From assembly GCA_023662905.1 (NCBI GenBank), contig JAMPIJ010000003.1, positions 1 through 64,000 on the forward strand: a DNA stretch of 64,000 nt. Reading direction: 5' to 3'. The notes beneath the pieces were generated by a model that was given only the letters and a program-made list of their open reading frames with translations, ran no database searches and was not told the origin of the DNA. The DNA is from Fusobacterium sp. Its GTDB lineage: Bacteria; Cyanobacteriota; Vampirovibrionia; Gastranaerophilales; Gastranaerophilaceae. Positions within the stretch are counted from its first letter, which is position 1. Every line of letters begins with the position of its first letter. The translations under genes were made by a program, and so were the position numbers. Positions 1-13,933 of this stretch are shown piece after piece.

Positions 1-935
1 TCTTAGGCGGATTTACTATGGCAGAGATATTACTCTCGCTAACTATTATTGGTGTCGTCGCAGCGATAACGTTGCCGTCGCTGACCGGCAACATTAACGA
101 GCGGACTTGGAACACTCAGCGAAAGGCGCTTTATGCGCGTATGTCGCAGGCTATAGCGTTAATGCCCGCACTAAACGGTTACGGAACCCTTACAGAGGAT
201 GAAAGTGGTAGTGTTACCGCGGATAATGTAGCCGAAACTTTTGTTACGGCTGGTTTATCAAAGGTTTTGAAACTTAATAATATTTGTGATGGTGATCATT
301 TGGAGGATTGTGGGATCGCGTCAAAACTTACCCCAATGGCAGGTGCTGTCATGAGCTTTCCCATTGATTGGCAGACTTTGAACCCACAGATGATTAAAAC
401 TTCCTATAACACTTATACACATTCTATGATTAACTCTAAGGCGGCAGCGTTTGAAACTGCAAACGGGGAAAGCGTCGTTGTTTATTACAATCCGCGTTGT
501 AAGTCGGAAGAGGAACGAGTGACTGCATATTTAGTGCCACCTTTAGTTTGTGCCAATTTTATTTTTGATTTAAACGGAACTAAAGGCCCAAATACCGTTG
601 GTAAAGATATCGGGTTTATGACAGTCCTATATTCGTCTGATTCAAAAGTTGTTGCGCCTTTCCCAACCGTTCAGGCAAGTTCTGGTTCTTATTATGATGA
701 AGCCGCAAAGTTTTGTCGTGAACAAGAAAATTCGCGTATCCCTAATAAAGAAGAGGCGATTTCTCTCTTTGTTAATAGGAGTTTCAGCCCAACACCAAGT
801 CAGTGGGCGATTTATACAAGTTCATCTCCGGGGAAAGCAAACAGAATTATACATATGGGGCTTGATAATGGTATGATGGGGGCTGTTTATAAGACTGAAA
901 ATGCGGCGCTAAGGGCGCAATGTATTAAGCGATAA
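1..935 (+). CDS. Prepilin-like protein with DUF1566/Lcl_C-like C-terminus (5' end outside window)
   Basis: The first complete codon is at position 3 and the start lies before the window. The visible protein begins in a type IV prepilin leader (..LLGG) followed by the FTMAEILLSLTIIG helix with Glu at mature position 5, so it should be cleaved and methylated by a prepilin peptidase and enter a type IV pilus or type II secretion-like fibre. A central block DLNGTKGPNTVGKDIG is shared with the paralogs at 2788-3813, 10799-11788 and, in altered form, 12989-13933. The C-terminal part (RIPNKEE ... CIKR) resembles DUF1566/Lcl_C domains. Positions 1-55 are identical to 10845-10899, so a G tract probably ends 4 bases before the window. 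Calling translation from the ATG at 18 would remove the leader, so I do not use it. Family call firm; tip or adhesin role inferred. Confidence 0.85.
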   Translation, partial: LGGFTMAEILLSLTIIGVVAAITLPSLTGNINERTWNTQRKALYARMSQAIALMPALNGYGTLTEDESGSVTADNVAETFVTAGLSKVLKLNNICDGDHLEDCGIASKLTPMAGAVMSFPIDWQTLNPQMIKTSYNTYTHSMINSKAAAFETANGESVVVYYNPRCKSEEERVTAYLVPPLVCANFIFDLNGTKGPNTVGKDIGFMTVLYSSDSKVVAPFPTVQASSGSYYDEAAKFCREQENSRIPNKEEAISLFVNRSFSPTPSQWAIYTSSSPGKANRIIHMGLDNGMMGAVYKTENAALRAQCIKR

Positions 936-3870: not shown

Positions 3871-3903
3871 AAAAAAGCCCACGCTTTTGCGTGGGACTTT
3901 TTT
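3871..3903 (-). terminator. Intrinsic terminator of the GntR-like regulator
   Basis: CCCACGC / GCGTGGG stem (3878-3884 with 3889-3895) with a TTTT loop, flanked by A6 on one side and T6 on the other. It lies just past the regulator stop and insulates it from the prepilin promoter about 10 bases further on. Confidence 0.8.
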
Positions 3904-5050
3904 AGTTTTCGTTTAAAACCTCTGCGTATTTCGGGTTGACCGCGAGCCATTTGAAGTTTTGAACTTCGGTTTCAGGGATGTCCAAAACGTAGGTTCCGCC
4001 GTAACGACCGCGTGATGAGGTCAAATAGCCCTCTTGTGCAAGGTTTGTAAAAGCTTTGCGGATTGTGTTCGGACTGAGGTCTAACTGGCGAGCAAATTCT
4101 GAAATCGGCGGAAGTTTGTCGCCCACTGAATAATTCTGCGCAATAATCTTTTTGATGTGGCTTTGCGTTTTTTCGTAATAATAAACAGCCGCTTCTGCCG
4201 CAGGTGCGAAGATTGATGTTTCTTTTGGCATATTTAATGTTGTTTTTTCGTCAGGCATTTTCATAATAATTGTACCGTATTGACCCCTTCTTGTCATTAA
4301 AATTCCTTCATCGGTGAGGATTTTGAACGCTGTGTGAATTGTACTCATACTTGCTTGCAGGATTTGCGAAAACTCTGCGTGTGAACTTATTCTGTCGCCG
4401 GTTCTGTAGTTTTTTGTTATGTATTGTTTCATATCTTTGACTACTTTTTCGACGAGGGTTTCACGGTTTGGCGTGGATTCTTCGAGTTCAAAGTCGTTTG
4501 AGGCGAGGAACCAGCCGGTTTGTTCGCCGGAGTTTTTGAAATTATGTTTTAAAATTCCCTGTGTGCAAAGGTTTTCGAGTGCAAGGCGAACGGTGTTTAC
4601 AGGGTGGTTAAGCGTTTGGGCGATGTGTTTTGATGACGAAATGCTTTCGCCTACCTGAAATCCGTTTTCTTTAATATAATTTTTAATTTGTGAAATTATG
4701 ATGTCGCGTTTTGAGGTTGATTTTTTGCTGAAAAGTGCAGGTTGATTTTTGTCGCGAAGAATTGTGCCGATGCAAGGTTTTGCCTCGATGTGGCCGTGGT
4801 CTTCAACGTATTTCAACGCATTTTGAACCGTTCCGATGCTGACGCCAAGACGGTATGCAAATTCCGCTTTTGACGGCATTAATTGACCTGTTTGGAAGTT
4901 TCCTGATTGCAAGCCGTTTTCGATTTTGCCGATAAGCCATTTGCCTATCGCGGAAGCTTTTGACTCCGTGATGTTCTTCAGGTCGGGAAGTTCAGTCATA
5001 AATTCGTTTATTGAAATCTGTGTCAGATTGTTTTTCAGTGTAAAATTCAT
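3902..5050 (-). CDS. Regulator made of four tandem GntR-type winged-helix domains
   Basis: 382 residues with four successive GntR-like DNA-binding units and no recognisable effector domain. They lie at about residues 34-100, 113-190, 199-265 and 293-357. Each has the GntR pattern of a short helix, a G-(D/E/Q)-x-(L/I)-(P/S)-S/P start, a helix-turn-helix (for example FARQLDLSPNTIRKAF) and a wing (SSRGRYGGTYV). Ordinary GntR proteins have one such domain followed by a ligand-binding domain. The ATG at 5050 has AAGG 6 bases upstream. The gene stands alone between a promoter and a terminator, upstream of the prepilin gene on the same strand. Its targets are unknown; neighbouring prepilin promoters are an obvious guess only. 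Confidence 0.85.
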   Translation of the reverse strand: MNFTLKNNLTQISINEFMTELPDLKNITESKASAIGKWLIGKIENGLQSGNFQTGQLMPSKAEFAYRLGVSIGTVQNALKYVEDHGHIEAKPCIGTILRDKNQPALFSKKSTSKRDIIISQIKNYIKENGFQVGESISSSKHIAQTLNHPVNTVRLALENLCTQGILKHNFKNSGEQTGWFLASNDFELEESTPNRETLVEKVVKDMKQYITKNYRTGDRISSHAEFSQILQASMSTIHTAFKILTDEGILMTRRGQYGTIIMKMPDEKTTLNMPKETSIFAPAAEAAVYYYEKTQSHIKKIIAQNYSVGDKLPPISEFARQLDLSPNTIRKAFTNLAQEGYLTSSRGRYGGTYVLDIPETEVQNFKWLAVNPKYAEVLNEN

Positions 5051-10748: not shown

Positions 10749-10777
10749 TTGACATGTTGCAAAACATGCTACATAAT
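10749..10777 (+). promoter_or_regulatory. Sigma70-type promoter of prepilin gene 10799-11788
   Basis: TTGACA (10749-10754), 17-base spacer, CATAAT (10772-10777). The spacer contains a CATGTT-GCAA-AACATG dyad (10753-10768), a possible operator, and ends AACATGCTA as in the promoter at 3838-3866. Confidence 0.75.
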
Positions 10778-10798
10778 GATTACAGAAAGGATGAACTT

Positions 10799-11788
10799 AT
10801 GAACAAAAGAAATGTATTGATTTGCGCAGGGGGGGGGGGGCCTCTCTTAGGCGGATTTACTATGGCAGAGATATTACTCTCGCTAACTATTATTGGTGTA
10901 GTTGCGGCAATAACGCTTCCGTCTTTGACAGGCAACATTAACGAGCGCACATGGAACACTCAGCGAAAAGCGATTTTTGCGCGGTTTTCGCAGGCAATTG
11001 CTCTAATGCCCGCACTTAACGGCTTTGGAACGATTTCGGAAGACGCCTCAGGCAGCGTTACCGAAGATAATGTCGCCGAAACATTTGTTACAGCCGGTTT
11101 AGCCAAGGTTTTGAAAATTAACAATATTTGTTCCGCAGGGCATATCGAGGATTGCGGTATTCCCGCGCAACTGAGTACTCTTAACGGCAGTAAAATAGAT
11201 TTCCCTCAAACGTTGGGAGATTTAAACAGTGCAAATGTTTCTTACGACACAACTGAAGGTGCTACGGGTACACCGGTGTCTTATTCTATTATCAATCCCC
11301 GTGCCGCTGCGTTTGAAACAGCGAATGGAGAAAGTGTAGCCGTTTATTATAACCCGAATTGTCAGGCTTATATGGCGGAATCTTTTTATATTTATATGCA
11401 AAAGAAAGTTTGCGCGAATTTCATTTATGACTTAAACGGTTCCAAAGGGCCTAATACAGTTGGTAAAGATATCGGGATAATGTCAGTGTTTTATCCGACG
11501 GATAGCGTTGTAGTCGCGCCGTTCCCGAATTTGAATGATGCGCCTTATGAGAGTTTAAGTAAGGTAACGTCGGCTTGTACAACGCAGGATCCGGAATATC
11601 GTTTGCCGTCGTTGGAAGAAATTGCGTCTGTTGGGATAAACCGTGTAATATTTGGAGCTTTACCGTCTGAAAGATATTGGACGACAACTTATGATACATC
11701 TGGAAAACGTCTGTATTTCCATTATACTTATATGCGAACCGCCGCATGGCAAAACGAATCCGCACAGGTAAGATGTGTGAAACGATAA
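10799..11788 (+). CDS. Prepilin-like protein with in-frame G12 tract in leader, DUF1566/Lcl_C-like C-terminus
   Basis: 329 residues from the ATG at 10799, with AAGG 8 bases upstream. The 19-residue leader reads ..LICAGGGGPLLGG and is cut before FTMAEILLSLTIIG; -1 is Gly and mature residue 5 is Glu, the normal prepilin peptidase context. Four leader glycines are encoded by 12 G in a row. The middle has FETANGESVAVYYNPNC and DLNGSKGPNTVGKDIG. The C-terminus (YRLPSLEEIAS, YWTTTY, VRCVKR) fits DUF1566/Lcl_C. With 11 or 13 G the frame hits a stop (TAG at once, or TAA about 35 codons on), so expression should switch with tract length. As read, the gene is ON. It is monocistronic, with its own promoter and terminator. 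Confidence 0.92.
   Translation: MNKRNVLICAGGGGPLLGGFTMAEILLSLTIIGVVAAITLPSLTGNINERTWNTQRKAIFARFSQAIALMPALNGFGTISEDASGSVTEDNVAETFVTAGLAKVLKINNICSAGHIEDCGIPAQLSTLNGSKIDFPQTLGDLNSANVSYDTTEGATGTPVSYSIINPRAAAFETANGESVAVYYNPNCQAYMAESFYIYMQKKVCANFIYDLNGSKGPNTVGKDIGIMSVFYPTDSVVVAPFPNLNDAPYESLSKVTSACTTQDPEYRLPSLEEIASVGINRVIFGALPSERYWTTTYDTSGKRLYFHYTYMRTAAWQNESAQVRCVKR
10829..10840 (+). repeat. Homopolymer G12 in prepilin leader codons
   Basis: Twelve G encode Gly-Gly-Gly-Gly in the leader. Loss of one G creates GGC CTC TCT TAG directly after the tract; gain of one gives a stop further on. Only lengths of 3n keep the gene open, the hallmark of a translational contingency locus. Confidence 0.9.
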
Positions 11789-11792
11789 CCGC

Positions 11793-11815
11793 AAGCGGGC
11801 GTAACGCCCGCTTTT
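11793..11815 (+). terminator. Intrinsic terminator after prepilin gene
   Basis: AAGCGGGCG / CGCCCGCTT stem (11793-11801 with 11805-11813) with a 3-base loop, then TT. It lies 4 bases after the stop codon and 17 bases before the hemW start. Confidence 0.8.
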
Positions 11816-12988: not shown

Positions 12989-13933
12989 ATGAATATAAGA
13001 GTTGGTTTACTGGATAGAGCGAAAAAAAGGGCGTTTACCCTCGTTGAAGTCGTAATTGCGCTGACAGTTGTCGGGGTGGTTACGGTATTAACTCTTCCTG
13101 CATTGCAGGCGAATATTCAAGATATGATCTTTAGAGTCAGGAAGAAAGTCTTGCATACACGTGTGGCGCAGGCTATTCCGCTTCTTGATACATTGAAAGA
13201 TTTTCAATCCGGTGAAGATTTTGTTGATAAATACCGTGACCTTGTTAAAGTTCACATGGTTTGTGATGACGACAAATTCTTTGGCTGTGGGCTTCCACAG
13301 GTATATGAAGATACTGCCGGCATGATGCACCGTATGCCGCGCTCTTGGGGTGAGTTGAATTCCAAACTCGTTGATATGTTCTATGAAGATGCGGAAACTG
13401 GCAAAATCTACTCATACCATCAGGAAGATTTTGACAGCGTTGCGTTTGTTACTGATAACCAGGAAAGTATTAACCTGTTCTTTAACCCTGTTTGTAAGGT
13501 TTTTGACCAGAAAGAAAACCCTAATTACTTCTCCGCGTCTTCAGTATGTATAAATATGATTTATGACCTTAACGGTAATAAACCGCCGAATAAGGTTGGT
13601 AAAGATATAGGTTTTATTACAATTTTTAAACCGGTGGATAGTGTAATTGTTGCACCTGTGCCGCATGATCAAGATGTTGACTCAAAAACTCAATCCGAAG
13701 CTTCCGGTAAAGCCTGCCATCAACAAAAAGGTTCGCTCAGAGCGCCTACCGATTATGAATTGGCCGCGATGTTTGTAAATACTCAACTTTTAAGCATGCA
13801 CGAGGGCTATTATTGGTCGTCTTCACTCTATTCACCTAACTTCGCTTGGTATCTGTGGGGAACAACAGGCTTAATCCTGCGCGAACCGTTGACCAGAGAT
13901 ACTGAAATGGATTTACGGTGTGTAGGCCGTTAG
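12989..13933 (+). CDS. Divergent prepilin-like protein, DUF1566/Lcl_C-like C-terminus, no G tract
   Basis: 314 residues. The leader MNIRVGLLDRAKKRA is followed by FTLVEVVIALTVVGVV with Glu5, a standard prepilin start with Ala at -1. The middle keeps DLNGNKPPNKVGKDIG and NLFFNPVCK, and the end keeps RAPTDYELAAMF, YYWSSSLY, FAWYLW and LRCVGR, so it belongs to the same family as the three other long prepilins. It differs in having a Lys/Arg-rich leader, no homopolymer and a different promoter, and so looks constitutively readable. pepA follows after 24 bases and may be co-transcribed. Confidence 0.9.
   Translation: MNIRVGLLDRAKKRAFTLVEVVIALTVVGVVTVLTLPALQANIQDMIFRVRKKVLHTRVAQAIPLLDTLKDFQSGEDFVDKYRDLVKVHMVCDDDKFFGCGLPQVYEDTAGMMHRMPRSWGELNSKLVDMFYEDAETGKIYSYHQEDFDSVAFVTDNQESINLFFNPVCKVFDQKENPNYFSASSVCINMIYDLNGNKPPNKVGKDIGFITIFKPVDSVIVAPVPHDQDVDSKTQSEASGKACHQQKGSLRAPTDYELAAMFVNTQLLSMHEGYYWSSSLYSPNFAWYLWGTTGLILREPLTRDTEMDLRCVGR

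Follow-up and report, generated by a model that had tools for sequence, protein, structure and literature searches.

The window, a 64-kb stretch of DNA that begins at the first base of its contig, comes from a member of the Gastranaerophilales (Melainabacteria); of the named relatives found, Candidatus Gastranaerophilus phascolarctosicola is the closest. It contains a complete prepilin gene with a run of twelve G residues inside its leader, together with other members of the same family (Table 1). After the tract come CCTCTCTTAGGCGGA and then the F-T-M-A-E motif at position 10856, and the gene reads MNKRNVLICAGGGGPLLGG^FTMAEILLSLTIIGVVAA... (also written MNKRNVLICAGGGGPLLGG^FTMAEILL, with ^ at the predicted cleavage site), remaining open for 329 codons. 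Shortening the tract by one G brings in a stop after 16 codons (CTC TCT TAG), and lengthening it by one brings in a stop after 47 (CAT TAA). An earlier note, made from the letters of the window, had placed the G12 tract in the leader of a prepilin, read its frame as open, and named the TAG and TAA stops for a shortened or lengthened tract. All of this is borne out, the stops lying about 3 and 34 codons beyond the tract, while the 18 bases that the note counted between the tract and the mature N-terminus must be corrected to 15 (10841-10855). Dinucleotide shuffling of the window gives an expectation of 0.25 eight-G words, whereas nine were seen, all within two tracts.

Table 1. Prepilin genes, leader tracts and associated features in the window
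Feature	Position	Strand	Remarks
Candidate sigma-70-like promoter, TTGACA-17-CATAAT, of the prepilin gene	10749-10777	+	consensus match, 11/12 positions
Ribosome-binding site AGAAAGGA	10784-10791	+	from sequence; common to most family members, before the ATG in nearly all copies
Prepilin gene, 329 aa	10799-11788	+	complete; ON in the assembly; ATG at 10799
Prepilin leader, 19 codons, MNKRNVLICAGGGGPLLGG	10799-10855	+	prepilin peptidase cleavage predicted from G^FTxxE motif
G12 tract GGGGGGGGGGGG, proposed ON/OFF switch	10829-10840	+	ON as assembled
Terminator-like hairpin 3' of the prepilin gene	11793-11813	+	
Second prepilin of the family, 341 aa	2788-3813	-	ON in the assembly
Leader tract of the second prepilin, G11	3765-3755	-	absent from the earlier note
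Third family member, mature part	12-935	+	contig begins inside the leader, just past the expected tract site
Prepilin of another subfamily (FTLVEVVIALTVVGVV), no G tract	12989-13933	+	2 kb downstream of the G12 gene
382-aa protein, apparently several tandem GntR-like winged-helix repeats	3902-5050	-	directly upstream of the minus-strand prepilin

The tract-less prepilin of the other subfamily offers a natural non-switching contrast to the G12 gene. The GntR-like protein is, by its position, a possible regulator of the minus-strand prepilin.

Pilin architecture and the lectin-like C-terminal domain

The family carries an invariant class III prepilin signal, with G or A at position -1 (G/A^FTMAE), a hydrophobic helix following, and Glu at +5. 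The window protein scores below the cut-off of the Pfam N_methyl model and just above that of TIGR02532, and its AF2 model (pLDDT 87) shows a long pilin helix at the N-terminus. A profile comparison matches the C-terminal third to the C-terminal domain of Legionella Lcl (PDB 8Q4E; E 1.2e-4). The corresponding Pfam family, Lcl_C (PF07603), was matched by 46 of 63 relatives at E<=0.01, the best at 1e-8; the window protein itself reaches 0.036, below the curated cut-off. The same Lcl domain is the top Foldseek match, a statistically weak one (E 0.015), with C-type-lectin-like proteins among the next matches. Judged by sequence and predicted fold, the mature protein is a pilin of modular build that ends in an Lcl/C-type-lectin-like domain. 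The Lcl domain binds sulphated glycosaminoglycans and resembles C-type-lectin-like domains (PMC11162425), and the family may act as adhesins or lectins. T2SSF/PilC-type pilus platform genes are present in this genome and are the only pilus machinery genes confirmed; the prepilin products would be assembled on a pilus and bind ligands.

Tracts and reading frames across the genome

The earlier note had suggested that this one locus is phase-variable, and proposed looking for the same tract in homologues, whose lack of one at this place would count as a refutation. That reading is supported and reaches far beyond one gene. Most homologues in this genome and in five related genomes do carry a tract there. 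A pattern search of the whole 1.74-Mb genome gave 112 runs of at least nine G, and we examined the surroundings of about 100 of them, plus stretches around prepilin motifs. Typically an ATG preceded by a good ribosome-binding site lies about 30 or 48-50 nt before the tract, and the prepilin motif follows the tract closely. Prepilins with the FTMAEILLS motif number about 107, and nearly all have their own ribosome-binding site and ATG. The 18 in-frame members compared are identical from FTMAEILL to TQRKA and divergent afterwards, with 49-58% overall identity to the window protein.

In 59 genes of this genome the start, tract and motif could all be read; 22 were in frame (ON) and 37 out of frame (OFF), with tract lengths from 9 to 16. 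When tract lengths were permuted among these genes, 23.5 +/- 2.9 were ON (p = 0.75 against the 22 seen). Tract length is thus independent of the frame that each gene needs, as continuing slippage predicts and as a constrained run of glycines in the leader does not. In silico, a change of one unit toggles every complete copy between a full-length and a truncated product. Expression of a single copy at a time, as with vlhA, finds no support in this genome given the number of genes in frame. The idea that the leader needs a tract to function was ruled out by paralogues in the family that have short leaders and no tract.

The genome has an intact MutS1 and thus shows no sign of a mutator; an apparent internal stop that might have suggested loss of MutS is the natural end of mutS. 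We counted this against switching by slippage, although in Neisseria phase switching occurs with MutS as well.

The OFF copies are not decaying genes. Of the complete ones, 33 of 34 become reading frames of at least 300 aa at another tract length, and the exception is due to masked sequence. The first 40 mature residues are the same in all 34 OFF genes examined, while the DNA that encodes them comes in 34 different sequences. Nucleotide diversity in OFF genes is 0.486 at third codon positions vs 0.008 at second positions, the same as in ON genes. For the closest paralogue pairs in which it could be computed, dN/dS is about 0.05-0.2, with dS near saturation. Conservation of the OFF copies rules out a family of pseudogenes. 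Initiation at the Met of FTM in OFF copies was also considered; it would lose the processing site, and most 3' leader modules have no ribosome-binding site there.

The conservation of OFF copies alongside ON copies could instead reflect constitutive recoding, in which slippage of RNA polymerase or of the ribosome on the tract lets every copy yield some full-length protein in whichever frame it lies, and the tract is a device for low-level expression, not a DNA switch. Most copies in a related genus (G041, below) also rest at the same off-by-one length, G10. However, lengths of 9-16 with random frames in this genome show no fixed programmed offset, and the tract-less paralogues are presumably expressed without such a device. 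We consider recoding an improbable account of the family, although recoding and slippage of the DNA are not mutually exclusive.

The main weakness of the analysis is that tract lengths are those of the assembly consensus, and poly-G is error-prone. By our own count, at least 30 of the 108 contig ends in this assembly lie less than 100 bases from a G tract, and several tracts of the Zag_221 assembly contain Ns (loci L121, L128, L141, and L160). If homopolymer error or two-colour poly-G calls had produced the tracts or their lengths, all of the genes might really be in frame. Against this, the tracts are internal, occupy the same codon position between conserved flanking sequences, and recur in the assemblies of several projects. 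In 22 genes the leader stays in frame across the tract. If all genes were really in frame, ordinary homopolymer error would not split them into thirds. A two-colour artefact was rejected because the tracts are internal and conserved in position in independent assemblies, and we hold sequencing or assembly error in general to be very improbable. There is a practical side to this, as assemblies break at the tracts and automatic annotation will label most tract genes as frameshifted. Metagenomic bins that break there will undercount and mis-annotate them.

G tracts of 11-14 were also noted in non-pilin reading frames (L064:2810(-), L074:501, L033:1998(-), L067:2017(-), L055:1957(-), and L222:2045(-)), including a family-2 glycosyltransferase split by its tract, an HTH-repeat protein, a DUF2963 protein, and others. 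These are possible further phase-variable genes.

Relatives in the genus and family

The number of tracts and the size of the family vary together among the seven species compared in the genus. The counts of tracts and family members are 112/106, 105/102, 87/90, 95/96, 115/114, 132/91, and 0/1; six species thus have 90-114 copies with a similar number of tracts, and the seventh has one copy and no tract. In the six species pooled, 33 genes are ON and 74 OFF, and 107 of 109 leaders are free of stops in the sole frame that joins the ATG, the tract, and the mature part. Orthologues in other species differ in tract length and state, often with quite different leaders. For example, the orthologue at L091, 77% identical to the window protein, has G14 and is OFF, while the window gene has G12 and is ON. 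Leaders of 80-117 aa with palindromic repeats were seen at L096, L102, and L105 (BRZ_KI_bin23, BRZ_PT_bin50), and these too are stop-free in the sole joining frame.

Within this genome, leader halves recur in different combinations that do not track the mature domain, a weak test given that the diverged mature domains carry little signal. Together with the differing leaders of orthologues, this suggests that leader recombination probably accompanies slippage. That the tract is mainly a recombination joint for exchanging leaders or promoters among pilin genes, with frame changes as a by-product, would fit the mixed leader halves and the different leaders on orthologous mature parts, but recombination alone accounts neither for single-base length variation nor for a tract kept at 9-16 inside a coding leader, and each gene has its own start and ribosome-binding site, which leaves this the least probable of the alternatives.

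Other genera have other arrangements. Genus g7 (G041) has different prepilins (FTLAEV) with tracts at about the equivalent place, and about 90 C-preceded G tracts (loci L201-L212). Among 18 tract genes sampled there, 3 are in frame and 15 are not, nearly all of the latter at G10, one G short of ON. This is unlike the random thirds of the genome studied here, and we counted it against switching by slippage, our preferred explanation. In genus g3 (G030; L241-L249), a G11 or G12 tract lies in an upstream ORF of 16-18 aa, followed by CCGACTTAGACCTCCG, a terminator-like hairpin (AAGCCGTGCC...GACACGGTGATTTTT), and the prepilin with its own ribosome-binding site and ATG. The arrangement looks like an attenuator that carries a poly-G tract, and it falls outside the ON/OFF scoring because, with an upstream ORF, the start rule gives no long ORF in any frame. 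Genera g2 and g10 have a few tract-bearing genes. At L250, L259, and L260 (G014, genus g2), the tract on the opposite strand is poly-C following ATGAAAAAGATTAAGAAGCTGAGAATTG, and some G014 leaders seem to use C10 in place of G.

The design of the window gene, with its short 3' leader, was found only in genera g1 and g10 in a pattern search of 383 genomes of the order. With the differing arrangements of g2, g3, and g7, the trait is patchy and diverse within the family. A search of viral contigs for relatives found none.

The proposed switch and known systems

We think it very likely that the G12 tract switches one member of a set of about 75-100 phase-variable prepilins that extends over the genome, which the sequences suggest is a poly-G phase-variation system for adhesin-like pilins. 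Each gene has a ribosome-binding site and a start of its own, a short leader containing a poly-G run of 9-16, a 3' leader module, a near-identical pilin N-terminus, and a variable lectin-like ectodomain. Slipped-strand mispairing during replication would alter the tract by one G, and tract lengths would change in this way in living populations. Two of every three tract lengths put the start codon out of frame, with truncation after roughly 15-70 codons, so that OFF genes would be without product; the third class would give prepilin. As the motif places the tract in the part that prepilin peptidase would remove, ON lengths such as 9, 12, and 15 should not differ in the mature pilin that they yield. 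Within a clone, cells would then show differing random subsets of the adhesin-like pilins, borne on a type IV pilus or pseudopilus.

For a more ambitious picture we see about even chances. Gastranaerophilaceae would have several leader designs for a pilus with exposed lectin-like subunits from about 100 independently flipping genes, at random thirds in one genus, OFF by default in another (almost every gene one G short), and under an attenuator-like upstream ORF in a third. A near-unique set in each cell would amount to a combinatorial code on the surface of a gut commensal that is related to the cyanobacteria. If switching by slippage is correct, about 6% of a small commensal genome (an estimate, from 107 genes of about 1 kb) is given to a single family of adhesins switched by slippage, and the G tracts of the genome outnumber those of Neisseria several-fold. 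It also yields a concrete hypothesis, that uncultured gut Melainabacteria vary their surface against the host, phage, or competitors, which can be tested with existing metagenome reads.

Switching by poly-G tracts is a known mechanism in Neisseria and Campylobacter, and the tract of Neisseria pilC lies in the signal-peptide region. In silent-copy systems such as pilE/pilS, gene conversion feeds one expression locus from copies that lack a start and promoter, whereas nearly all copies here have their own ribosome-binding site and ATG. At the same threshold of at least nine G, pathogenic Neisseria have 15-18 tracts per genome (PMC5953494) vs 112 here. A close likeness is to pilC1/pilC2, where a homopolymeric G/C tract (9-20) in the reading frame of a pilus-associated adhesion gene switches it by a change of one base (PMC5953494). 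These are one or two genes per genome and not pilins, while here there are about 100 paralogous prepilins. The vlhA genes of Mycoplasma gallisepticum are likewise a large surface-protein family with a short repeat in each member, whose number varies between orthologues; however, the vlhA repeats are GAA in promoters, active at 12 repeats (PMC6258824), and here the repeat is G, lies downstream of the start in a coding leader, and leaves about a third of the copies in frame. In the number of loci, the phasome of Neisseria meningitidis is comparable, with 115 read-validated phase-variable genes in one study and homopolymer slippage, but it covers many gene families with mixed repeats and 59 variable G/C clusters over the pan-genome (PMC5084427), as opposed to mostly one family and one repeat type here.

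Modular pilins bearing adhesins are widespread (PMC8179133). PilB and PilC of Streptococcus sanguinis similarly present a grafted binding domain on a filament by way of a pilin module, in few copies and with no phase-variation tract described there (PMC8179133), whereas here Lcl_C-like modules occur in a large set of paralogues. Legionella Lcl (PDB 8Q4E, PMC11162425) shares a homologous C-terminal domain by profile and is the top fold match, but it is a trimeric collagen-like protein, not a pilin, and its glycan specificity cannot be assumed here. A report on a termite-gut Gastranaerophilus notes type IV pilus genes, with no mention of switching in those passages (PMC5877343). No paper joining phase variation with Melainabacteria or Gastranaerophilales was found in open-access text. 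While the mechanism has clear precedents in Neisseria and Campylobacter, the scale, gene family, and lineage of the poly-G system described here appear to be new to the open-access literature.
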